From: Streptomyces sp. Go-475 | GTDB taxonomy: Bacteria > Actinomycetota > Actinomycetes > Streptomycetales > Streptomycetaceae | Direction of reading: 5' to 3' | DNA length: 64,000 bases | NCBI RefSeq assembly: GCF_003330845.1 | Contig: NZ_CP026121.1 | Location: 4,011,501-4,075,500, forward strand | Shown: positions 42,932 to 56,812 of the stretch, in pieces | How the letters are laid out: the number at the start of each line of letters is the position of its first letter | Numbering within the stretch: the stretch's first letter is position 1 | Position numbers and translations under genes: made by a program | Notes under the pieces: model-generated | What the model was told of the DNA's origin: nothing | Database searches by the model: none | Seen by the model: the letters and a program-made list of their open reading frames with translations, nothing else

Positions 42932-43005
42932 GGCTGGGTAGCTCAGTTGGTACGAGCGTCCGCCTGAAAAGCGGAAGGTCGCCGGTTCGACCCCGGCCCC
43001 AGCCA
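42932..43005 (+). tRNA. tRNA-Phe (GAA), AICE integration target
   Basis: The cloverleaf has acceptor GGCTGGG/CCCAGCC and anticodon loop CTGAAAA, giving anticodon GAA. Its 3' part from 42962 on and the terminator that follows are repeated at 54709-54816. The tRNA is intact on the left side of the element, so insertion did not damage it. Confidence 0.95.
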
Positions 43006-43069
43006 CAACCGCCCTCACCAGGGCCTGAGCCCCTCTCCGTCACCATCGGGGAGGGGCTCTTTCGTGCCG
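42962..43069. repeat. attL of the tRNA-Phe AICE
   Basis: This 108-bp segment, made of the tRNA-Phe 3' part and its terminator, is repeated at 54709-54816 with one mismatch (C at 43025 against A at 54772). The integrase gene ends 28 bp to its right, the normal layout for these elements. Confidence 0.92.
43027..43059 (+). terminator. tRNA-Phe terminator (inside attL)
   Basis: GAGCCCCTC and GAGGGGCTC form a hairpin followed by TTTCG. The same hairpin is present in attR at 54774-54806. Confidence 0.8.
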
Positions 43070-43096
43070 CCTACGCCAACCGGTACGCCAACGCCC

Positions 43097-44300
43097 TCAC
43101 GAGAGGGTGTCCCCGAGCTTCCTGAGCGCCTTCCGCTGTTCGTCCAGCGACGCGTGCGCGTAGACCTTCATGGTCACCCCGATGTCGCTGTGGCCGACGA
43201 TCTGCCGAACCACGTGGGGAGGCACGCCGAGGTCGAGCAGGAGCGACACGGCGGAGTGCCGCAGGTCGTGAAACCTGATCTCCAGCCCCAGGCGGGAGCG
43301 AAAGGGGGTGCCAGCTCCGCCGCAGGTTGTCCGGCTCCAGCGGAGTACCGATGCGGGACGTGAAGATCAGCCCGTGTTCCTTCCACTCGATGCCGGCGGC
43401 GGCCCGCTCCTGCGCCTGCCGCTCGCGGTGCTCGGTGAGCGCCTTCACGACGACGGGCGGCAGAGGGACGGTACGCACCGAAGCGAGGGTCTTGGGCTTG
43501 ACCAGCCGCAGCTCACCGCTGACGCGCTGTAGAGCGCGCTCCACGATCAGCGTCTCGCGGTCGAGGTCGACCGCATCCCAGCGCAGCCCGAGCAGCTCGC
43601 CACGGCGCATCCCCAGGACCAGAGCGAGCACGTACAGCGCGTGCAACCGGTCCTCGGCGGACTCGCGGATGAGGAGCCTGGCGTCAGCGACGCTGAGCCC
43701 CTTCCCGGTGTCGTACGAGGGCGTGGGGACCTGCACGAGCTGGGCGACGTTCCGCACGATCAGTTCCTCCCGTACGGCGTTCTGGAGCGCGTTGCGGAGC
43801 ACGGCATGGATGGACTGCACCATGCGGCGGGACAGCAGAGCTTTGCAGCACTCCCCTGTCGCGCAGCACTGCGGCTCGGGCCGCTCCTTGTCCCAGCCGT
43901 GCTTGCAGCACTGGCACTCGGAGGCAACGCGGGCCAGCCACGTCCGGACCTCGGCGGCCCGCAGGGTGCGGATCTTCTTGCGGCCCAGCCCGGGGACCAG
44001 GTGGACCCGGGCCACGCTCTCGTAGCCCTGGTAGGTCTTGGGGCGGCGGTGGACCTTCACCACGGTCGCGAGCCAGTAGGTCAGGTAGTCCTCCAGGTTC
44101 ATGTTCGTGTCGGGCACCGGGATGCCCTGGTTCTCCTGCGCCTGGAGTTCGGTGATCTTGTGGCGTACCTCGTCACGAGTCTTGCCGTAGACCGAGACGC
44201 GCTTGCGGATGCCGCTGGTCGTCGTCACGTACACGCGGCCGTGGTACGTGCCGTCCTTGCGGATGGTGATGCTGCCTTCGCCGTTGGCACGCTTGGCCAT
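43097..44300 (-). pseudogene. int: AICE tyrosine integrase with +1 frameshift
   Basis: The gene starts at ATG 44300 (MAKRANGEGSITIRK) and has the N-terminal AP2-like and SAM-like domains and the first catalytic Arg region (GMRRGELLGLRW). At the run of five G at 43304-43308 (C on the coding strand) the frame shifts. After the shift the correct frame continues RFHDLRHSAVSLLL, VGHSDIGVTMKVYAHAS and ends KLGDTLS at 43097. The HxxR, His and Tyr catalytic residues are all downstream of the shift. The unshifted frame ends at 43071 with unrelated sequence. Either the integrase is dead or the extra C is a sequencing error. Confidence 0.85.
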
Positions 44301-44497
44301 CAGGCGGCCTCCTCCAGTCGGTTCTGCATGAATGCTTGGACCGCGTCGGCGGGGACCCGACGGGCCCGGCCGACGGTGAAGCTCGGGAGCTGCTTGGAGC
44401 GGATCAAGTCGTAGACCTTGAAGCGGCTCAGGCGGAGAGCCGTCATGACCTCGGGGACCGTCAGCGCCTGGTGGGTGGTGGGCAGGGCGGTGCTCAT
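44300..44497 (-). CDS. xis: Excisionase (MerR/AlpA-like)
   Basis: The 65-residue protein has a winged-helix excisionase motif: LTVPEVMTALRLSRFKVYDLI at about residues 12-32, then RVPADAVQAFM. It directs excision with the integrase. ATG 44497 follows GGAGGAG; the stop overlaps the integrase start by one base, so the two are translated together. Confidence 0.88.
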   Translation of the reverse strand: MSTALPTTHQALTVPEVMTALRLSRFKVYDLIRSKQLPSFTVGRARRVPADAVQAFMQNRLEEAA

Positions 44498-44541: not shown

Positions 44542-44743
44542 CCGCTACTTCCGCTACCGCCGCTACCGTGCAGGTCAGGGGCCTGTGCGGGGTAGCGGGA
44601 AGGGGTAGCGGTAGCGGATGGGTAGCGGCGCGGTAGCGGCATCCGGAGCCGGTTGCCGCTACCGCGTTGGTGCTGGTCAGGCGGCGTTTTCGGTGCCGGG
44701 TAGCGGAGGTAGCGGACTTTCCGGGGGTGGGGGGCAGTAGCGG
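44542..44743. repeat. Iteron-like array of GTAGCGG, 12 copies
   Basis: GTAGCGG or its complement CCGCTAC occurs at 44542, 44551, 44560, 44592, 44605, 44611, 44622, 44633, 44656, 44700, 44709 and 44737. The first three and the one at 44656 are in the opposite direction. The array spans the gap between the DUF3631 gene and xis and enters the 3' end of the DUF3631 gene. It is a candidate origin of replication for the excised element. Confidence 0.75.
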
Positions 44744-45822
44744 GCCCAGGCGTCCCGGAGATCGGCGGCGTAATAGCCCTTGAGGACGCTCCCGGCGGTC
44801 TTGATGTTGCGGGACGTGATGGGCTCGTTGTCGGCCGTCATGTACTCGGCGAGCATCCGCGACAGGCGCCGGTTGTCGAGCGGCTTGCCGTGGAGGTCGG
44901 CCCAGGGGGCGTCGTCGAGGGCGTTGAGCCGGTCGAGGATGGCGACGGTGGGCAGGCGATCGATGCCGACCATGACGTGATCGCGCAGGTCGGTCAGCAA
45001 GCGGACGCCCAGGCTGCCCTTGTCGTTGGCCTTGGAGGCGGTGACCAGGGTCACGCAGGCTTCGCGGGCCCGGGTGGGCCAGGCGCCGCCGGCCGCGTCG
45101 GCGACGGCGAGCAGGGGTTCCCACACGTCCGCCGGGCGGTCGGTGACGCCGTCGGGCATCTCCGGCCAGGCATCCACCACCTGTGCACGAGCCTGCTCGG
45201 CCCATGCCGCGAGCCGGTCACGCAGCTTGTGTCCCTCGGCCTCGTGGATGCGGGCCCGGTAGGACTCGACGTGTTCGTTGCGGGCCCGTCGGCGCATGCG
45301 GATGATGACGGAGCGGGTCATGATCGTGTCGGGCAGAGAGCCGAGTCCGGCGACCGCGACCCCGCAGTACGAGGGGAAGGCCTGAACGGTCTGGTTGCCG
45401 CCGTCGCCGATGCACCGGTAGGTGACCCCGGAGCGGCGGTGACCTGCGTTGAGGAACCCGCGCAGTTCCTCGTTGTCTCCTGCCTTGGGTCCGAAGATCG
45501 TGTCGATCTCGTCGAACAGGATCGTCGGCCGGCCGTTGGGCCCGGACACCGCCCGGAACAGGGCGGCGGCGGAGGCGTTGACGGCCGTCATGGGCTGCGG
45601 CACGAGGGTTTCGACGATCTCCAGCGCCCGTGACTTGCCCGACCCCGGCTCGGGGGACAGGAAGGCGAGGCGGGGGGTGGAGTCGAAGCAGTCAAGCAGG
45701 TGGGCGTGGGCGTCCCACAGCGTCACGGCCACGTAGGCGGCCTCGGTGGGGAAGACGTTGAAGCGGCGGTGGAAGGCTTCCACCTCGTTCAGCACGGCCG
45801 CGCCGTCGAGGGTGGGGGTCAT
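44677..45822 (-). CDS. DUF3631 ATPase, AICE replication protein
   Basis: The 381-residue protein has an ATP-binding N-terminal half with Walker A SPEPGSGKSRALE near residue 50 and an acidic Walker B-like ILFDEIDTIFG near 100. The C-terminal part is the DUF3631 domain (PITSRNIKTAGSVLKGYY). DUF3631 proteins accompany prim-pol proteins in AICEs and probably act as the helicase. ATG 45822 overlaps the stop of the small upstream gene by 4 bp. Confidence 0.82.
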   Translation of the reverse strand: MTPTLDGAAVLNEVEAFHRRFNVFPTEAAYVAVTLWDAHAHLLDCFDSTPRLAFLSPEPGSGKSRALEIVETLVPQPMTAVNASAAALFRAVSGPNGRPTILFDEIDTIFGPKAGDNEELRGFLNAGHRRSGVTYRCIGDGGNQTVQAFPSYCGVAVAGLGSLPDTIMTRSVIIRMRRRARNEHVESYRARIHEAEGHKLRDRLAAWAEQARAQVVDAWPEMPDGVTDRPADVWEPLLAVADAAGGAWPTRAREACVTLVTASKANDKGSLGVRLLTDLRDHVMVGIDRLPTVAILDRLNALDDAPWADLHGKPLDNRRLSRMLAEYMTADNEPITSRNIKTAGSVLKGYYAADLRDAWARYCPPPPESPLPPLPGTENAA

Positions 45823-46169
45823 GCGGCGGCCCTCCCTTCCTGGGCGGCGGAGGCGGTGTGGGGGCAGACTCCGACGGTCACGCGGGTGGTGAGTTCGATG
45901 ACGGCGGCCCGGCCACGGGCGCGTTCGTGGTGCCCGCACGAGCACAGCCAGTCCGCGACCGGCGGGCGGGTGAAGCGGACCTGAAGCCCCGGCCAGATGC
46001 CGGTGACGACGACCGTGTCCGGGTCAGGGACAAAAGCAGATCGGTCGCCCTTGCGGGCGGCGCCTTTCGGCTCGCCCACGGCCCGTGGTGCTGCGGCCCG
46101 TTCGGCGGCGCGCGGACCGGCCGGGGCGTTGGTGATGCTCTTCAGAGGGGGACGGGGAGAGGGGCTCAT
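45819..46169 (-). CDS. Small AICE protein between prim-pol and DUF3631 genes
   Basis: The 116-residue protein has a basic N-terminal half and a possible zinc motif WLCSCGHHERARG plus a later VGVCPH. It is coupled to both neighbours through overlapping stop and start codons. Its role in replication is inferred only from position. Confidence 0.6.
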   Translation of the reverse strand: MSPSPRPPLKSITNAPAGPRAAERAAAPRAVGEPKGAARKGDRSAFVPDPDTVVVTGIWPGLQVRFTRPPVADWLCSCGHHERARGRAAVIELTTRVTVGVCPHTASAAQEGRAAA

Positions 46170-47071
46170 GCGGCGTTCCTCCTGCCCTGGTTGTGGGTGA
46201 TGGACCAGTCCAGAGCGCTGCGGAGGGTGGAGCGGCACTCGGACGCGGACAGGCCGGCCGCCTCCCCCGCCTCCTGAAGAGCCTGCTCCACCACACTCCT
46301 GGGGTGGTCGCCCCACGCGACGAACCGCCCCATAGCCCGTGCGGCGCGGAACAACGTCGCCTCGCGCTCGCCGACTTGGGCCGCAGCCACGTTCCGTGCC
46401 TCGCTGTCGAGCGCTACATCCGCATATCGGCGGGATTGCCCCGATACGGCCATCGAGGGCGCCTGAGACGCCCTGGGGGCCGGTTGCAGGATGGTTTGCA
46501 GCCACGGCGGCAGAGAGACCGTCTCAGGGCCGCACAGGGCTTCGTACCGTCCGGCGGGGGTGGTGCTACCGGCCGCGACGACGTAGCCGCCCCATGCGCG
46601 GGTGTCGACCGAAGCGGCCACGGTGCCCGCCGTGTTGCCCAGCCGCACACCGGGCGGGGCGGTGAAGTACAGGTGCGTTCCGCCGCTCGCGGTCCGCACG
46701 CGGTAGGTGTCGGGGACGGCGTGCCCGGTGCGCTCGCAGAGCGCCTTGAAGGTCGCCGCGCCGTCAGGCGCGTCCGAACTGCCCTTGTGCTCTGGGGTGT
46801 CCAGGTCGACGACGACCAGCCCGGAGGGGCCGGTGGCGATCCCGACGTTGAACGACGCCCGCGACCAGGCGGCGCGGATCCGGTCCGGGTCGGTGGTGGC
46901 GCGCTGCTCCCACTTCACGTGCCCAGCCGCGCACACGCCAGTGCGGGTGCAGGACTTCTCCCCGTGCAGGGCCGGGGGCTTGCCGCCGGGGCGGAGAGGG
47001 AAGACGTGCCAGCCGCGTTCGGCGGCGTCCAGTGCTGCGCGCAGCAGCGCTCGACGGGGGTCATGGGTCAT
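46166..47071 (-). CDS. Bifunctional DNA primase/polymerase (prim-pol)
   Basis: The 301-residue protein has the AEP-type prim-pol fold. Catalytic motifs are visible as GLVVVDLDTPEH (DxD type) near residues 85-95, GTHLYF with the conserved His near 130, and AWGGYVVAAGS near 160. It starts with RGWHVFPLRPGGKPP, the usual prim-pol opening. It would prime and copy the excised element. Confidence 0.85.
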   Translation of the reverse strand: MTHDPRRALLRAALDAAERGWHVFPLRPGGKPPALHGEKSCTRTGVCAAGHVKWEQRATTDPDRIRAAWSRASFNVGIATGPSGLVVVDLDTPEHKGSSDAPDGAATFKALCERTGHAVPDTYRVRTASGGTHLYFTAPPGVRLGNTAGTVAASVDTRAWGGYVVAAGSTTPAGRYEALCGPETVSLPPWLQTILQPAPRASQAPSMAVSGQSRRYADVALDSEARNVAAAQVGEREATLFRAARAMGRFVAWGDHPRSVVEQALQEAGEAAGLSASECRSTLRSALDWSITHNQGRRNAA

Positions 47072-48103: not shown

Positions 48104-50221
48104 CTACTGCGAGGCGAAAGCGGAATCCGCCTCGGGGCGGTTGGCCAGGGCGCGGTGGAGACGGTCACGGGCGACGACCATGCGGCCGTCGGACTTGTAC
48201 GGCTCGGCTCCGGTGTCCTCCAGCACGCGGCGCAGGTCGGCGAAGGTCCAGCCGCCGTAGGCGTCCTCGTTCAGGGTGGCGAGGCGCTTGAGGACGTCTT
48301 GGGTGACCAGGCGGGGCGCGTCGCCCAGGACGGTGGCGATGTCGGCGAGCGGGTCGCGCTCCTCGCCCCGCTCGATGACCCGGAGCGTGGTGACGCCGTC
48401 GCGCATCGCCTTGGCCCGGTCGGCGATCTCGGTGGCCTGCTCGGTGTCGATGTAGTGGGTGCGGACGTTGATGGACGCCTGACCTGCGGGGATGGCGATG
48501 CCGTCGGAGGCGACGACGACCTGTCCCTTGTCCAGCCCGGGGCGCAGCAGGTTGGGGGCCGCGCCGCCGTCGACTGCCTTGTCCCCCAGCGCCATGCGGG
48601 CCTGCGATTCGGTGCCCAGGGCGAGCGCGGCGCGGGTGTGGGCGCCCTCGCGGACCAGCTTGGGAAGGTTCTGGTCGGTGGGGTCCTGCGTGCCCTGCCA
48701 CATCAGCACGTTGACCGCACGACCCTGGTTGTGGATCTTCCTCACGGCCATGAAGTAGCGGCTGGTGGCCTTGGACCCGCCGTAGGGCCGCTTGTCCTCG
48801 TCCTTGAGCGGGCACATGAACGCCACCTGCGCCTCATCCACCAGCGTGATCAGCGGCGGGAAGGTGGTGCCGGGCGGGGCCTGGAGGCGGCGGTTCATCT
48901 CCTCCACGGCGTCCTCGACCATCTCGGTCGCCTCGATCACGTGCTCGTCGGTCGGGCCCTGGATCAGCACCGTGGCGAGCCCGTCGAACATGGCCCAGTC
49001 ACCGGCGCCCTTGAGGTCGGCGATGCGGAACTCCACCGACCGGTCGAGCGCCAGCCACAGCGCCAGGGCCCGCAGTGCGGCGGTCTTGCCCTGGTTGGAC
49101 AGGCCGGTGATGAGCAGGTGGCGCTGATACAGGCTCAGGGCGGCTGCGTCGCCTCGCAGGTCCTGGCCCCAAGGGGCACGTCCCTTTGCGTAGTCGGCGG
49201 TCAGGGTCTCGTCGGTGACCAGCGGGGACGGGCCGATCGGCTCATCCAGCGCGCCGCTGTCGGCGATCCACAGGCGCACCGTGCGGGCGGCCTGCGGGAT
49301 GGTGATGAACACCTCGTGCTCGTGCCGGGTCAGGTTTTCCGCCAGCTTGCGGCGCCGGTTCTGCACCTCGACCGTCGACACCCCCGACGGCAGCGTGACG
49401 TCGACCTCGACGCCGCATCCGGCGATGCGGATCGGGCCGAGCATGGAGGCGCCGGCGTCGCCCATCTCCTTGATCGCGTTGCGCAGGGCGGGCACCCCGA
49501 GGTCGCGCAGGGCCTTGACGACGATGGACGGGGTGATCGGCTCCCCCTCCCCGTTGCGGACGTTGGCGGGCAGGGCCCAGTTCGGGGCGGCCTGCTGCTT
49601 GCGGCCGACGGCCCACAGGGCGAGCAGGGCCAGGAACGGGCCGATCGTGAGCGCCGGACCCCAGACGATCTGCACGATCCGGATCAGGGTGCCGATGAAG
49701 TCGATGGTCGCGCTCAACGGGGTGATGACATCGCCGACCTGCTTGGTGTTGAGCGCCATCACGATCCCGAGGGCGACCAGCAGGCCAACGCTCATACCGG
49801 CGCCGACCCCGACCGCCTTGGCCGCGTCCACCGGCGAGTGAAGCAGGTCCATCCGCCGGCGGTGCCGGGCCTCGCGGAAGCGCTGCAGACGCTCCTCCCA
49901 CTCTTCGGCGACCTCGTAGTTCCCTGCCGCTTCGGCCGCACGGAGCATGCGCTCGTAGCGGGCACCGGTACGGCCGTCCCAGGTGCGGCGGGCCACGATC
50001 CGGCCCCCGTTGAACGTGTAGAGGCCGTGGCGGGCCACCGTGCGGACGACCGTCTTGGTGTTCTCGTGCGTGGCGGCCGTCTTGATGGCCCTGCCGGAGC
50101 GCACCCACAGCGGCACGGGCCGCGCGGGCGGCGCGTCCGGCACGACGGTCAGCACGGTGGGAGCGGTGTCCGGGGACGGGGGATCGGCGGCCTTGTGGAG
50201 GTGGACGACGTTCTCAGACAT
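48104..50221 (-). CDS. traB: FtsK/SpoIIIE-type DNA translocase TraB
   Basis: The 705-residue protein is the septal DNA translocator used for conjugation of double-stranded DNA in Streptomyces. Residues 150-215 hold membrane segments (VGLLVALGIVMAL, ALTIGPFLALLALWAV). The ATPase has Walker A LITGLSNQGKTAAL near residue 370 and Walker B PLITLVDEAQVAF near 460. ATG 50221 gives MSENVVHLHK; the frame extends upstream without a ribosome site. The repeats downstream may be its target. Confidence 0.9.
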   Translation of the reverse strand: MSENVVHLHKAADPPSPDTAPTVLTVVPDAPPARPVPLWVRSGRAIKTAATHENTKTVVRTVARHGLYTFNGGRIVARRTWDGRTGARYERMLRAAEAAGNYEVAEEWEERLQRFREARHRRRMDLLHSPVDAAKAVGVGAGMSVGLLVALGIVMALNTKQVGDVITPLSATIDFIGTLIRIVQIVWGPALTIGPFLALLALWAVGRKQQAAPNWALPANVRNGEGEPITPSIVVKALRDLGVPALRNAIKEMGDAGASMLGPIRIAGCGVEVDVTLPSGVSTVEVQNRRRKLAENLTRHEHEVFITIPQAARTVRLWIADSGALDEPIGPSPLVTDETLTADYAKGRAPWGQDLRGDAAALSLYQRHLLITGLSNQGKTAALRALALWLALDRSVEFRIADLKGAGDWAMFDGLATVLIQGPTDEHVIEATEMVEDAVEEMNRRLQAPPGTTFPPLITLVDEAQVAFMCPLKDEDKRPYGGSKATSRYFMAVRKIHNQGRAVNVLMWQGTQDPTDQNLPKLVREGAHTRAALALGTESQARMALGDKAVDGGAAPNLLRPGLDKGQVVVASDGIAIPAGQASINVRTHYIDTEQATEIADRAKAMRDGVTTLRVIERGEERDPLADIATVLGDAPRLVTQDVLKRLATLNEDAYGGWTFADLRRVLEDTGAEPYKSDGRMVVARDRLHRALANRPEADSAFASQ

Positions 50222-50320
50222 GCTGGGAGTTCTCCTGACTGCCCCAACAGGGCGGGAGTGGGGGAGAACCGGGGTGGCCGGGTCCGTGGAAAGAGCGGCC
50301 ACCCCGGGTGTGATGGCTGG

Positions 50321-50638
50321 TCAGAACCAGCCGGAGGACTTCTTCTTGGCCTTGTCGCGGGCGGCCTCGGTGATGAGCCTCTGACGCTCGCCGTGCAGGG
50401 CGTTCAGTTCCGCGTTCAGCCGGAGTTCGGCAGAGCTGCCGGTGGCGTCCATGCGCCGTTCCTCGCGGCCCGCGCTACGGCCCCGGGCCACCTTGTAGGC
50501 GCCGCTGGCCAGGGCGCGGGCCATGGCCCGGCGCTCGCTGCCGTTCAGCGGCCACCACTCACCCCGGCGGACCGCTTCCAGCTTCTTCGTCGTCGCCTGG
50601 ATCTCGCGGTCCAGGCGACGAATGTCGGCGTTGCGCAT
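50321..50638 (-). CDS. Small coiled-coil AICE protein
   Basis: The 105-residue charged protein is helical, with ADIRRLDREIQATTKKLEAVRR at its start and a Lys/Ala-rich tail. ATG 50638 has GGAG 9 bases upstream. It lies between traB and the spread genes. Function unknown. Confidence 0.6.
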   Translation of the reverse strand: MRNADIRRLDREIQATTKKLEAVRRGEWWPLNGSERRAMARALASGAYKVARGRSAGREERRMDATGSSAELRLNAELNALHGERQRLITEAARDKAKKKSSGWF

Positions 50639-50640
50639 GG

Positions 50641-50988
50641 TCAGGTACTCCTCGGGGAGTCGGCGGAGTCGGGATAGGCGCAGGTCACGCACATGCCGAG
50701 CGAGGCGGGGATGACGTAGCCCGCATCGGTCCGGCAGGCGGGGCAGACGCGGCGGGCGGCGTTGGCCTTATCCAGCGCCGCCCGCCGGCCCGGGGTCATC
50801 GGCCTCACCGGTTTGGCGAGGTCGACGCGGTAGAGGTAAGCGACCAGGGGCCCCCGGCGGCGGCGTGGCCGTTCGAGCTGAGCGGCCACGCCCTGGCCGC
50901 CGGGCCGAAGCCCACGGGCGCGGAGTTGGCGTCGGGTGGCGTAGCCGTCCGGGGCCAGGCGCCACCGGTAGACCGGCAGCGCGCCCAT
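50641..50988 (-). CDS. Small AICE protein with zinc-finger motif
   Basis: The 115-residue protein starts MGALPVYRWRLAPDGYATRRQLR and has a C-terminal four-Cys set: CPACRTDAGY and GMCVTCA, a likely zinc finger. Such RRQL-type proteins recur beside spdB in Streptomyces AICEs. Its ATG overlaps the stop of spdB by one base. Confidence 0.65.
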   Translation of the reverse strand: MGALPVYRWRLAPDGYATRRQLRARGLRPGGQGVAAQLERPRRRRGPLVAYLYRVDLAKPVRPMTPGRRAALDKANAARRVCPACRTDAGYVIPASLGMCVTCAYPDSADSPRST

Positions 50989-51845
50989 CAGGCCACGCGC
51001 TTCCACGCGGCCCGCAGCCGGACCTCGGAGGCGGAGTGGCCGGCGGCCCGGAAGCGGGCGGCCATCTCCCGGTACGACAGGGCCGGAACCTCACTGGTAC
51101 GGATCTCGTCCACCAGCGCGTCCAGCGCCTCATCCGACAGCACCGGGGCGGCCGTCTCCAGCGCCGGAACCGGCTCCGTCGGGCCCCAGACGGGCAGTTC
51201 CCAGCGGGGCGTGACGCCGGGCGTGACGCGACTCGTCACGCTGGTCAGGGCCCTGCCGGTCTCCTCGCCCTTGCGGGCTGTCTCCAGCGTCGACCACGCC
51301 CCCGCAAGGGTCTCTGCGGTCTTGGCCTGGACGCGTGCGACGCGGGCCCCGGCGGCCGTCACGGCCGTCAGCCGGGTCTCCTCGGTGGCCGCTTCCGCCC
51401 GCAGCCGTGCGCGGGCCACGGCCGCTTCGTCGCGTGCCTCCTGCTGGATGCCCCGGATCGCGTCGAGCGCGAGCGGGGTGAGCGCGGTGCGCTCCCACAG
51501 GCTGTGCACGAGCCACAGGGCCTTGGCGGCGATGGGCAGCCACGCGACGGCCAGCCACGCCCCGGCGGAGTGTTCGGCGGTCAGGGCGTGTGCCACGAGG
51601 ACGCCGGTGGCGAGGATGCCGAAGGACCAGCCGACGGCGGTCACGGCCTGGTTGTGGTCGCCCTGCGCGGCGAGGCGGCGTTCGTAGGCGAGGGTGGCCA
51701 GCCATCCGCCGTCGATCCCGAGACCGACGACCAGGGCGACCGGCCACGGCACCGCCGTGCCCAGCCACATCATCACCACCGCGAGGGTCAGCACCATGGA
51801 CACGGCCGTCATCGCCACGGCCGGAAGCACCGTCTTGGCCTTCAC
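50988..51845 (-). CDS. spdB: SpdB-type spread protein (DUF2637-like)
   Basis: The 285-residue protein has three to four membrane segments in its N-terminal half (VLPAVAMTAVSMVLTLAVVM, AVPWPVALVVGLGIDGGWLA) and a helical Ala/Glu/Arg-rich C terminus. The WLATLAYERRLAAQGDHNQA stretch is characteristic of SpdB/TraB-associated proteins. GTG 51845 overlaps the stop of the PycTM-like gene by 4 bp. Confidence 0.78.
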   Translation of the reverse strand: MKAKTVLPAVAMTAVSMVLTLAVVMMWLGTAVPWPVALVVGLGIDGGWLATLAYERRLAAQGDHNQAVTAVGWSFGILATGVLVAHALTAEHSAGAWLAVAWLPIAAKALWLVHSLWERTALTPLALDAIRGIQQEARDEAAVARARLRAEAATEETRLTAVTAAGARVARVQAKTAETLAGAWSTLETARKGEETGRALTSVTSRVTPGVTPRWELPVWGPTEPVPALETAAPVLSDEALDALVDEIRTSEVPALSYREMAARFRAAGHSASEVRLRAAWKRVA

Positions 51846-52291
51846 AGCGCGCCCCCCGCCGTGATCAGCGCGGCGAGGATGAGCAGGACCCCGCCGGCGG
51901 CGGTCAGGTCGACCGCGCGGCGCAGGCACGTGAACTTGGCGACTGCCAGCCTGGACAGGCCGGCGATGTCGGCGGCCATGTCCCGGTCGACCGCAGCCGT
52001 GATCTCCTCGGGCGTCAGGGTGGCCCACAGCAGGAAGCCGTGACGGCCCGACAGGTTCGGCCGCACCGATCGCAGCAGCATCCCGGCCGCGCCGACCAGC
52101 AGCGCCAGACCGAGCCCGCCGACGATGTAGGCGGGGACGCTCAGGGGCAGGTCGCGCGCGACCGTCCACGAGCCGGCGAGGACGGCACCGACGAACGCCA
52201 GCAGCAGCGCCGTCTTCGCGTCCGTGCGCGTGATCTCCGCCTTCACCTCCGCGTGGGCGGCGGTCAGGTTCTTCTCCGTCGCGGTGCTCAC
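51842..52291 (-). CDS. PycTM-like membrane protein (Pycsar effector family)
   Basis: The 149-residue protein fits the Pycsar effector transmembrane family (PycTM). It has an N-terminal helix with TDAKTALLLAFVGAVLAG, a second membrane segment YIVGGLGLALLVGAAGMLL, a conserved middle region (RLAVAKFTCLRRAVDL) and a final membrane helix. In Pycsar, cCMP or cUMP made by PycC triggers such proteins to damage the membrane. No cyclase gene is present in this element. Its position inside the transfer operon suggests a spread or incompatibility role instead. GTG 52291. Confidence 0.7.
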   Translation of the reverse strand: MSTATEKNLTAAHAEVKAEITRTDAKTALLLAFVGAVLAGSWTVARDLPLSVPAYIVGGLGLALLVGAAGMLLRSVRPNLSGRHGFLLWATLTPEEITAAVDRDMAADIAGLSRLAVAKFTCLRRAVDLTAAGGVLLILAALITAGGAL

Positions 52292-52986: not shown

Positions 52987-53077
52987 GTTGTACCAACAAC
53001 TGACGCTCAGAGTGTTGCCTTGATCGGTTGGGATCGTCAACCCAAAGCGCGTATGTTGTTGGCACAAGTCAGCCAAC
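52987..53077. promoter_or_regulatory. Operator cluster for the GntR repressor
   Basis: Three inverted repeats are seen: GTTGT/ACAAC at 52987-53000, GGTTG/CAACC at 53026-53042 and GTTGGC/GCCAAC at 53058-53077. They share a GTTG half-site, and the last ends 13 bp before the repressor start. This fits autoregulation and repression of the transfer genes. Confidence 0.6.
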
Positions 53078-53090
53078 TGTGGGAGGTGCG

Positions 53091-53852
53091 GTGAGGGAGC
53101 AGCAGCCGAGGTACCACCGGATCGCGGATGACCTGCGAGGACAGATCGAGCGTGGGGAGCTGGAGCCTGGCCAGCAGCTTCCTACTGAGTTCGAGCTGGT
53201 GGAGCGCTACGAAGCAAGCAGGAACACGGTTCGCCTCGCCCTGCGGCGCCTAACAGAGGAAGGGCTCATCATCGCAGGTCAGGGGCGTGGTAGCTTCGTC
53301 CGTCGCAGTCTCAAACCGGCGGTGTGGGACTGGTCTGTCCTGGAGTCGCGCTCCCGCCACAAGACGGACGATCAAGGCGACCAGTGGGCGAGCATCGTGG
53401 CTGAAAGTGGCCGTCAACCACGGCAGGAAGTCCGCGTCTCCATTCGGCGCCCACCCGCTGAGGTCGCGGAACGCCTGGACCTGGACCCGGAGACTGAGCT
53501 GACCGTGGTTCGGGAGCGGGTTCGGATAGTCGACCAGGACCCGTACGCCCTTGCGGACTCCTACTTCCCCGAGGAACTGGTGCGAGGCACGCCCTTGATG
53601 CTGCCCGAGGACGTGTCAGCGCCCGGTGGCGTGCTGGCGAGCGTTGGGCTGATCCAGGCGCGTTATCGAGACGAAATCACCGTGCGCATGCCTACACGGG
53701 CTGAGATCGAGAAACTCAATCTTCCTGCCGCCACCCCGGTCGCCGTCCACATGCGTACGGGATACGACAAGGATGATCGCCCCCTGCGGGTCATGATCAC
53801 GATTCTTCCGGGAGACCGGCATGTCATCAGGTACGACGTTTCTGGGGAATGA
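53091..53852 (+). CDS. GntR-family repressor, KorSA-like
   Basis: The 253-residue protein has an N-terminal GntR winged helix (about 8-72, YHRIADDLRGQIERGELEPG and EASRNTVRLALRRL) and a C-terminal UTRA ligand domain (about 100-250). In pSAM2, KorSA of this family silences the replication and transfer activator. GTG 53091 has GGGAGG 4 bases upstream. The region has lower GC than its surroundings, which fits a mobile origin. Confidence 0.85.
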   Translation: MREQQPRYHRIADDLRGQIERGELEPGQQLPTEFELVERYEASRNTVRLALRRLTEEGLIIAGQGRGSFVRRSLKPAVWDWSVLESRSRHKTDDQGDQWASIVAESGRQPRQEVRVSIRRPPAEVAERLDLDPETELTVVRERVRIVDQDPYALADSYFPEELVRGTPLMLPEDVSAPGGVLASVGLIQARYRDEITVRMPTRAEIEKLNLPAATPVAVHMRTGYDKDDRPLRVMITILPGDRHVIRYDVSGE

Positions 53853-53853
53853 C

Positions 53854-54549
53854 GTGCGTGTGTGGGAGCCATCAGGCGCGAAGGCGCTGACCAGCATTGA
53901 CGCAACTCGGCCGGCCGACCGGCAACCGCGTCAGGTCTGGTACACCTCGTACGGCTCCAACATGCACTTGGACCGCCTGTCCTTCTACATCAGGGGTGGG
54001 AAGCCTCCCGGCGCTGCGAGACGGTACCCGGGATGCCGGGACCCACAAATGCCCTCCCGATCCATCTCGATCGAGCTGAACGGTGCGATGTACTTCGCCA
54101 CCGAGTCCCCCGTGTGGGGAGGTGGCAGGGCCTTCTACGACCCGTCAGCGGATGGACGCGTGTTGGCAAGAGCGCACCTGGTCTCGGCCACCCAGTTTTC
54201 TGATATCGCAGCTCAGGAGATGTACCGGGAGCCTGGTGAGTGCCTCGATCTCGCAGAAGTGATTGCTAGCGGCCGGTCGGTGCTGGGGGATGGCCGCTAC
54301 GAAACCCTCGTCTGCGCTGGGCAAGTTGAGGGCTTGCCCGTGCTCACGTTCACCGCTCCCTGGAGCATGAGCGACGTGTCATGGAACCCACCGTCCGCCG
54401 CATACGTGCGCTATCTGGCCGCAGGTCTCCTGTCTGCGGACACCTGGGACCTTGAGGCAGTCGCTTCATACGTGGCGGCCTGCCCCGGGGCGACCGGTCA
54501 TTGGTCAGTCCAGGATGTAATCGACCTGATCAGTGATGACAGCAGCTAG
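53854..54549 (+). CDS. Gamma-glutamylcyclotransferase-like AICE protein
   Basis: The 231-residue protein contains VWYTSYGSNMHLDRL near residue 30, the YGSN motif of the gamma-glutamylcyclotransferase fold. Similar proteins in Streptomyces elements are sometimes annotated as histone deacetylases, which the sequence does not support. The rest (ALVCAGQVEGLPVLTFTAPW-like stretch) has no other motif. It follows the GntR gene almost directly and is probably cotranscribed. GTG 53854; an ATG at 53821 inside the repressor gene is also in frame. Confidence 0.65.
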   Translation: MRVWEPSGAKALTSIDATRPADRQPRQVWYTSYGSNMHLDRLSFYIRGGKPPGAARRYPGCRDPQMPSRSISIELNGAMYFATESPVWGGGRAFYDPSADGRVLARAHLVSATQFSDIAAQEMYREPGECLDLAEVIASGRSVLGDGRYETLVCAGQVEGLPVLTFTAPWSMSDVSWNPPSAAYVRYLAAGLLSADTWDLEAVASYVAACPGATGHWSVQDVIDLISDDSS

Positions 54550-54708
54550 GCCCGAACTGAGGTATGCCGCCGGGCACTATTCCCGCGCGTGACCAGCAGG
54601 AAGCGCTCCGTGGGCGTACGCCAACCGGTACGCCAACAGCAGCGCACAAACACAGCTACCGGCCGTCACCCACTCCCCCGCGACCACGCCCCGCCCCACC
54701 AGGACACG

Positions 54709-54816
54709 GCCTGAAAAGCGGAAGGTCGCCGGTTCGACCCCGGCCCCAGCCACAACCGCCCTCACCAGGGCATGAGCCCCTCTCCGTCACCATCGGGGAG
54801 GGGCTCTTTCGTGCCG
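54709..54816. repeat. attR of the tRNA-Phe AICE
   Basis: This copy of the 108-bp attL repeat carries the tRNA-Phe 3' end without the rest of the tRNA. It ends the mobile element. One mismatch (A at 54772) separates it from attL. Confidence 0.92.
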
Positions 54817-54829
54817 TACGGGGCAGCGG

Positions 54830-55018
54830 CTAGTCGTTCCCGTTGCCCTGCCGCGAGCGGGAATTCCGGCTCGCGCTGCGGGTCAGTTCGCTGCCGAGCA
54901 GCGTCACCCTGGCCACACCGCGTGCCCAGCGCGGGGCGTCCCCCCGGGCCGCCCAGAAGACGCAGACGCAGCCGCCGATGACGAGCAGAACGACGACCGC
55001 CAGTATGGCCACGAGCAT
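54830..55018 (-). CDS. Small single-pass membrane protein
   Basis: The 62-residue protein has one membrane helix (MLVAILAVVVLLVIGGCVCVFW) and a basic tail. ATG 55018 follows a GGGGG box. It lies just outside attR, so it belongs to the chromosome. Function unknown. Confidence 0.6.
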   Translation of the reverse strand: MLVAILAVVVLLVIGGCVCVFWAARGDAPRWARGVARVTLLGSELTRSASRNSRSRQGNGND

Positions 55019-55141
55019 GCTCAACCCCCTGTTTCGTGTGATGGTCCGCGTCATCCTGTCAGGCGGACCTCACCTCCCGCAGGCCACAGGCCACAGGGCC
55101 CTGGTGGCACAGCCGAGTCCGCCGGAGCGGCAGGCGCGCGG

Positions 55142-56608
55142 CTAGGCCGACGCCACGCCCTCCCGGGGGCCGACCCACCGGGTCAGGGCGGTCAGCAGCG
55201 CGTCCTGGTCGTGGTCGTCCGCGGCCCAGGCGACATAGCCGTCCGGCCGTACCAGCAGCAGCGCCGGTCCCCGGGGACTCGCCGGGGCGACGGTGATCAG
55301 CCGCTCGCCCCAGCCCGTCACCTCGGGGCACCGGCCGACGAGGACGAAGCGGCAGGCGCGCAGTGCCTCGTACAGCCGCCGCGCGGTGCCGGCGCCCGGG
55401 GCGAGGCGCAGGTCGGGAGCGCGCCGGCCGGTGTACGGGTGCGCGCCGCGCGGCGCCGGATAGGCGATGGAGATCCCCGTCGCCTCGGCCGCGAGACGGT
55501 CGGCCAGGGGTGGCAGCGCGGCGGCGGCGCGCGAGGCCAGGTTCATGGCGGTGCGCAGCACAGGCGTGTGGATCAGTGCCAGCCGCATCATCCTGCCGCT
55601 GTCCCGGATCACCTTCCGGCCGATCGGGTGCCGCTCGGTCTGATACCCGTCGAGCAGTTCCTCCGGAGCCCGCCCCCGCACCACCGCGGCCAGCCGCCAG
55701 GCCAGGTTGGCGGCGTCCTGCAGCCCGGTGTTCATGCCCTGACCACCCGCCGGCGAGTGCACATGCGCGGCGTCGCCCGCGAGCAGCACCCGGTCGAGCC
55801 GGTAGCGCGGCGCCTGACGCTCGTCGGTCTGGAAGCGGGAGAGCCAGCGCGGGTCGTGCATGCCGAAGTCGGTCCCGAGGGCCTTGCGGGTGATGGTCCG
55901 CACGTCCTCCAGATCGAGCGGGGCCTCCACCGGCAGCTGCTTGGCACGGTCCCAGGCGACCACCCGGTGCCAGCCGTCGCCCAGCGGGGAGACGAAGGCG
56001 ATCCCGTCCCGGACCGCGTTCGCCAGCGGCATGCCCTGCGGCACGTTCAGGCGGACGTCGGCGAGCATCACCGAGCGCAGGGCCGCCCGGCCGGGGAACG
56101 GAAAGCCCAGCGCCCTGCGCACCACGCTGTTCATGCCGTCCGCACCGACCACATAGCGGGCGCGCCAGGTGTGGACGGTGCCGTCGAACCGGCGTACGGA
56201 CACGCTGACGCCGTCGGCGTCCTGGCGGAGTCCGGTGACCTCCGCGCCGAGCCGCACGTCGGCGCCGAGCGCCCCGGCCCGTTTCGCCAGCACCGCCTCG
56301 GTCTCGTGCTGCGGGGTCAGCAGCATGTACGGGAACCGGCTCGGCAGGCGCTTCAGGTCCAGCTGGGCGTCCCCGATCATCTGCAGTGTGCCGATCCGGA
56401 CCCCGCGGGTGACGAGTTCGTCGGCGACGCCCCGGGCGTCCAGCAGCTCGAGCGTGCGCGCGTGGACCGCGAAGGCACGGGTGAGCAGCGACTCCTGGGC
56501 GCGGCGCTCCAGCACGGTGACGGACACCCCCGCCGCGGCAAGGTCTCCCGCGAGCATCAGACCGGTGGGACCGGCCCCCACGATCAACACTTCGGTGGCT
56601 TCAGGCAT
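55142..56608 (-). CDS. FAD-dependent aromatic monooxygenase
   Basis: The 488-residue protein belongs to the PheA/TfdB-type class A flavoprotein hydroxylases. It has the FAD motif VLIVGAGPTGLMLAGDLAAAG at residues 6-26, a DG motif region (ARYVVGADGMNSVVRRALG) and the second FAD motif LLAGDAAHVHSPAGGQGMNTG near 280. The C-terminal part resembles the thioredoxin-like domain of phenol hydroxylases. It would add oxygen to an aromatic substrate using NAD(P)H; the substrate is unknown. It is divergent from hrpA with about 204 bp between. Confidence 0.85.
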   Translation of the reverse strand: MPEATEVLIVGAGPTGLMLAGDLAAAGVSVTVLERRAQESLLTRAFAVHARTLELLDARGVADELVTRGVRIGTLQMIGDAQLDLKRLPSRFPYMLLTPQHETEAVLAKRAGALGADVRLGAEVTGLRQDADGVSVSVRRFDGTVHTWRARYVVGADGMNSVVRRALGFPFPGRAALRSVMLADVRLNVPQGMPLANAVRDGIAFVSPLGDGWHRVVAWDRAKQLPVEAPLDLEDVRTITRKALGTDFGMHDPRWLSRFQTDERQAPRYRLDRVLLAGDAAHVHSPAGGQGMNTGLQDAANLAWRLAAVVRGRAPEELLDGYQTERHPIGRKVIRDSGRMMRLALIHTPVLRTAMNLASRAAAALPPLADRLAAEATGISIAYPAPRGAHPYTGRRAPDLRLAPGAGTARRLYEALRACRFVLVGRCPEVTGWGERLITVAPASPRGPALLLVRPDGYVAWAADDHDQDALLTALTRWVGPREGVASA

Positions 56609-56812
56609 GGGACGGGAGGCCCTCCAATCAGGTGCGGCTGCCGTACGGCCTCACCGCCCATGCAATCCCCGCCCGAACGAGAAACGGTCAAACCTCACTC
56701 CGCGGCGACGCGGCGACGCGGCGAGGGCGGCGAGGCCCGCGCCGCCTCCCGCCGCACCCCGGGACAAAAGCGTTAGCCACGAATTTCCCGAGGATGAGAT
56801 CCTGGATCCCGT

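Follow-up and report, generated by a model that had tools for sequence, protein, structure and literature searches.

A one-base frame change before the catalytic half of a tRNA-Phe AICE integrase in Streptomyces sp. Go-475: probably a recent insertion

The integrase gene of the Frankia AICE Faln1739 is described in PMC3218068 as predicted to be truncated (stop at position 291), excision of the element being detected all the same; ribosome slippage is hypothesised in that account but not shown. Regarding slippage itself, PMC4519876 reports for E. coli that non-programmed +1 slippage at CCC-C can be as high as 1% at codon 2, and puts non-programmed slippage generally under 0.003%. The window analysed here is a stretch of 64,000 nucleotides from Streptomyces sp. 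Go-475 (GCF_003330845.1, contig NZ_CP026121.1, positions 4,011,501 to 4,075,500), holding an AICE whose integrase gene (int) changes frame by one base. It is proposed, with a probability of roughly 0.6, that a recent one-base insertion at about residue 333, most likely in a T run beside a C run, has left this tRNA-Phe element stranded. Literature searches found no report on frameshifted AICE integrase pseudogenes in Streptomyces, and none on long-read homopolymer indel errors giving rise to frameshifts in this genus.

The element and its genes

The AICE that hosts this int gene sits at a tRNA-Phe gene, is about 11.8 kb long and has a 108-bp repeat on either side. The tRNA-Phe gene that serves as integration target lies at 42932..43006 (+), and the att repeat beside int (42962..43069, +) is 108 bp long, 107 of which are identical to the far copy at 54709..54816 (+), leaving one mismatch. 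These direct repeats comprise the 3' part of the tRNA and the terminator-like stretch behind it. Just inside the int-side repeat is a further direct repeat, TACGCCAACCGGTACGCCAAC (43072..43092, +), a second copy of which is found in the same orientation inside the far end (54617..54637, +); both are candidate arm-type sites, possibly for the integrase or for Xis. In the relative G009 the site is empty: just 88 bases separate the positions that correspond to the tRNA end (43009 of the window) and to 56763. An FAD monooxygenase gene (FAD_binding_3, Rng_hyd_C) occupies 54817-56762, between the far att repeat and a helicase gene; G009 lacks this stretch at the corresponding place, and it may be a separate acquisition.

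Adjoining int, a predicted helix-turn-helix protein (HTH_17; 44300..44497, -) is the putative Xis, and the stop codon of its gene overlaps the int start codon. The replication module consists of a DUF3631 gene (44677..45945, -) and a Prim-Pol gene (46166..47071, -), each in a single frame against relatives. The FtsK/SpoIIIE-type, TraB-like transfer gene (48104..50302, -) is 87% identical to its counterpart in G419 and also reads in a single frame; it scores 22.6 bits with FtsK_SpoIIIE (cut-off 24) and 20.5 with the TraB model NF041214 (cut-off 800), while its position and size fit the assignment. An RRQRL motif zinc-binding protein follows at 50641..51006 (-). A protein with a PycTM (Pycsar effector) domain is also carried in the AICE, at 51842-52291 (-), with 57.6 bits. 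At 53028..53852 (+), a GntR/UTRA regulator has both Pfam domains complete in one ORF and occupies what we take to be a KorSA-like position. The modules stand in the order att-tra-rep-int-att, which PMC3218068 gives for AICEs.

The ORFs of eight fetched stretches from seven genomes (L186 and L012 being on one contig) were aligned to the element, antisense-shadow rows not being counted. L186 matches from int to about 52.9 kb, and in it the replication gene (44680-46083), the transfer gene (48110-50356) and the stretch 50991-52097 each correspond to one frame; the Prim-Pol gene is likewise in one frame in L012, L009, L010, L177 and L178. Between 53.0 and 54.7 kb, a segment that covers the regulator and a gene at 53821-54549, no match was found in any relative compared. 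Wherever relatives did match the element, int is the only gene split between frames. Both att repeats, xis and the other comparable genes look intact, and for this reason the element is better described as stranded than as decayed.

The integrase gene and its frame break

The int gene starts with an ATG at 44300 on the minus strand. Its frame-0 part (43302..44300, -) contains Phage_int_SAM_3 and positions 19-112 of the 172 of the Pfam Phage_integrase profile, and presumably also the first catalytic Arg, placed there by its motif; a search of solved structures gave one match, 2kkp, to the N-terminal domain. Family sequence continues in frame 0 up to CAC CCC CTT (43310-43302), residue ~333, and is replaced thereafter by an unrelated tail (43071..43300, -) that would be translated if the ribosome stays in this frame. 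The break lies at 43301..43308 (-), where the coding strand reads ...CAC CCC CTT T CGC..., i.e., a C5 run (43304-43308) followed by a T3 run (43301-43303), so that a slip-prone CCC-C precedes the rare Leu codon CTT. The five C at 43304-43308 noted in an earlier sequence-only reading are indeed there, as five G on the plus strand. The catalytic C-terminal part (HDLRH, GHSD, VYAH; 43097..43300, -) is open only in the +1 frame, which reads TPFRSRLGLEIRFHDLRHS...GHSDIGVTMKVYAHAS...GDTLS* with a stop codon at 43099-43097; the family sequence resumes in it as RSRLGLEIRFHDLRHS...GHSDIGVTMKVYAHAS...GDTLS.

Tyrosine recombinases are marked by the motif set Arg, HxxR, His/Trp and Tyr. In the window these residues are not found in one frame, the last three (HxxR, the later His and the catalytic Tyr) being readable in the +1 frame only. 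In a tblastn search the intact relative L010 is split exactly at the break, its residues 1-333 matching one frame and residues 332-400 the following one, and the frame-0 product has 409 aa. The earlier description of an AICE integrase with a one-base frame change, whose primary product has lost the catalytic half, is thus borne out.

Integrase relatives were collected by a protein-level scan of genome contigs, the best 80 of 91 being retained; among these the closest 16 loci are all Streptomyces. The break point was examined in 41 of the best 80 loci (L009-L049), the 39 more distant ones (L050-L088) being left out. All 41 keep the HxxR region in frame with the upstream residues, down to identities of 41-47%, and none has the break seen here. 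The DNA of one of them, L016 (Streptomyces flaveolus), is the same as that of another genome of the genus, G020. With five more loci the set grows to 46, or 45 distinct ones (L174 and L022 are one record), of which 39 keep one frame open. In the other six (L011, L029, L038, L039, L047 and L049) int is damaged or incomplete elsewhere; damage to int is thus a recurrent event, which fits a real mutation. Frame breaks of their own toward the catalytic end are seen in other Streptomyces assemblies at L038 (3001-4196), L011 (near 4188) and L049 (near 3516). A close int relative (E up to 1e-120) is held by 6 of 392 genomes of the genus, its own genome counted. Searches with the int region gave nothing in phages and a single 8% match in plasmids, and the exact 28-base break site was not found in viral contigs.

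As for which base is the additional one, the sequence-only reading had taken it to be an extra C, five instead of four. This does not agree with the relatives, since L017 and L024 also have five C here and are in frame. A W-x-P motif occurs at the site in 24 relatives, and the residue after this Pro is Leu in 21 and Ile or Val in three, never Phe; moreover, L009 has CCA CTT CGC where the window has CCC CTT TCGC. On these alignment grounds an extra C in the C run was set aside, and the T run is probably the better position for the extra base, a placement that alignment alone makes preferable without proving it. Either placement has the same consequence for the integrase.

Age and origin of the break

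Over the 60 codons past the break the window differs from L011 by 12 synonymous and no nonsynonymous changes, and from ten other relatives by 1.0-5.5 nonsynonymous differences in the same C-terminal part. Counting only columns invariant among 11 relatives, the changes private to the window past the break are two synonymous and none nonsynonymous; the N-terminal part likewise has no private nonsynonymous change. Because no amino-acid change private to the window has accumulated after it, the break, judged from the sequence, is either very recent or not real.

It can therefore be asked whether the cell's genome has an intact integrase and a fully mobile element, the break being an assembly or base-calling error. 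Places where a C run and a T run adjoin are typically prone to sequence error, and the break falls on just such adjacent homopolymers (C5T3). The conserved C-terminal part and the single frames of the other matched element genes would be expected on this account too, and the frame losses near the int C-terminus in L011 and L049 could likewise be assembly errors. On the other side, the assembly is a single 8.57-Mb contig with completeness 100, and a survey of its other genes speaks for its accuracy. This survey compared 655.5 kb of the genome's own assembly (G000) with syntenic G009, 93% identical in the 3-kb helicase gene; the int break lies outside its reach, as G009 is without the element. 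At the protein level, matches were obtained for 362 of 477 G009 ORFs (133,407 residues aligned), with eight frame changes flagged in G000 and nine in G009. The eight are five upstream (5') leaders or ORF extensions, two genes open in G000 but split in G009, and one MFS gene that also has a deletion; five were judged by translation, two by a spanning G000 ORF and one (260484) by N-terminal position and start-codon context. At the DNA level, 42 events were flagged in G000 and 40 in G009. Of the 42, all but three (39 events) fail to show coding-type mismatches both before and after the event; the three are one gene that is split in G009, one gap of 14 bases and one single-base gap whose AGGAG...ATG context suggests a gene start. 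The sensitivity is about 40%: in a simulation with 80 single-base deletions 36 were picked up, four of which were flagged even with no deletion present. With that sensitivity, no clear lone interior single-base break in a conserved gene was found in the 655.5 kb of G000. The MFS transporter gene, which against G009 has both a broken frame and a deletion (G000:C1, about 4393089-4393600), is likely a true pseudogene.

At about 40% detection, we estimate that any one 1.2-kb gene has a chance of at most roughly 2% of containing an error. Since the survey found no clear lone single-base break, a real mutation is considered more likely than an error, by our own weighting about two to one; the error nevertheless keeps a substantial minority share of the probability.

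The sequence-only reading had also offered a programmed frameshift as a less probable, testable alternative, in which a +1 shift would be a regulated step setting the integrase level. The junction does carry a slip-prone sequence, CCC-CTT-T at 43307-43301, and CCC-C followed by a rare CUU is a plausible shift site: CUU amounts to 1.58 per 1000 codons (111,050 codons in ORFs from 400 kb of this genome) and CC[CU]-[CU] sites are uncommon, at 0.93% of the same codons. If the ribosome slipped at CUU-U or at CCC-C, it would enter the catalytic frame, and the product would have the family Leu or a Phe at one residue. However, no in-frame stop is found near the site when frame 0 is read, the predicted downstream fold does not stand out clearly from shuffled sequence (z -1.40, with 21 of 200 shuffles giving an equally good fold), and the break is absent from all 41 loci examined, a result on which programmed frameshifting was rejected as very improbable. 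With no examined locus sharing the break and no clearly strong structure predicted downstream, any slippage would be accidental, and on this analysis it may supply a trace of integrase. A stronger version, in which the break is real and +1 slippage at CCC-CUU-U is frequent enough (tenths of a percent or more) for a working integrase, would make the element a 'pseudo-pseudogene' AICE whose excision is accidentally throttled yet inducible; this is thought unlikely. Even less probable, indeed scarcely credible, is that the truncated protein is kept for a purpose, e.g., as an att-binding repressor locking the element in place. The SAM-like N-terminal domain is intact and the N-terminal part is free of private nonsynonymous changes, but the break is too recent for selection on the truncated form to show and is present in no examined locus. 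Rescue by another integrase of the same genome was also considered and is unlikely, the seven other matching stretches in G000 being at most 43% identical. A second integrase relative in G000 (L002, L003; G000:C1:3622261-3623076) is matched in two pieces, one of them with an in-frame TAA.

Consequences and comparison with known systems

In the preferred reading, a recent one-base insertion at residue ~333 would shift the gene out of frame before its catalytic half. The main product would keep the DNA-binding part and the first catalytic Arg and lose HxxR, the second His and the nucleophilic Tyr, and as read it would, going by the family, be unable to recombine. As the break falls on CCC-CUU, where a rare codon comes after a slip-prone proline quartet, the ribosome could still by accident shift +1 and so make traces of a near-normal integrase. 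The statement in the sequence-only reading that the element cannot excise goes too far, given the CCC-C slippage reported for E. coli (PMC4519876) and the excision described for an AICE with a truncated int (PMC3218068). Such a lesion is an ordinary one, of a familiar sort and in an element of a familiar kind. A mobile element whose integrase is broken is stranded and may begin to decay. Where the lesion is fresh, lies on a proline quartet prone to slip and leaves the element looking otherwise intact, it becomes possible to test cleanly whether mobility persists through accidental frameshifting. If slippage does provide a working enzyme, the element would be excised more in cells with little tRNA-Pro m1G37 or EF-P activity, or with slow decoding of CUU.

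The closest counterparts are the tRNA-Phe AICE integrases L010, L011, L012, L016 and L172, with 92-97% identity to the window int over residues 1-330. Unlike in the window, a single frame stays open through HxxR, His and Tyr in L010, L012, L016 and L172; the same holds for L011, which has a break of its own at the last residues. The tRNA-Phe 3' core lies behind int in 21 of the 23 loci tested, among them L010, L011, L012 and L016, and is not found in L014 and L018. Faln1739, as presented in PMC3218068, resembles the AICE of the window in that its int is predicted to give a truncated protein; there, however, the cause is a stop codon and excision was shown, whereas here it is a frame change known from sequence alone. 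The quartet for which PMC4519876 reports CCC-C slippage in E. coli is identical in frame 0, but in the window it stands at codon 332, in Streptomyces, and its slippage is a prediction. Finally, the 'pseudo-pseudogenes' and corrective frameshifting treated in PMC5009743 concern indels that are perhaps partly undone in translation, as may be the case for the window int, for which the likeness is read from its DNA.
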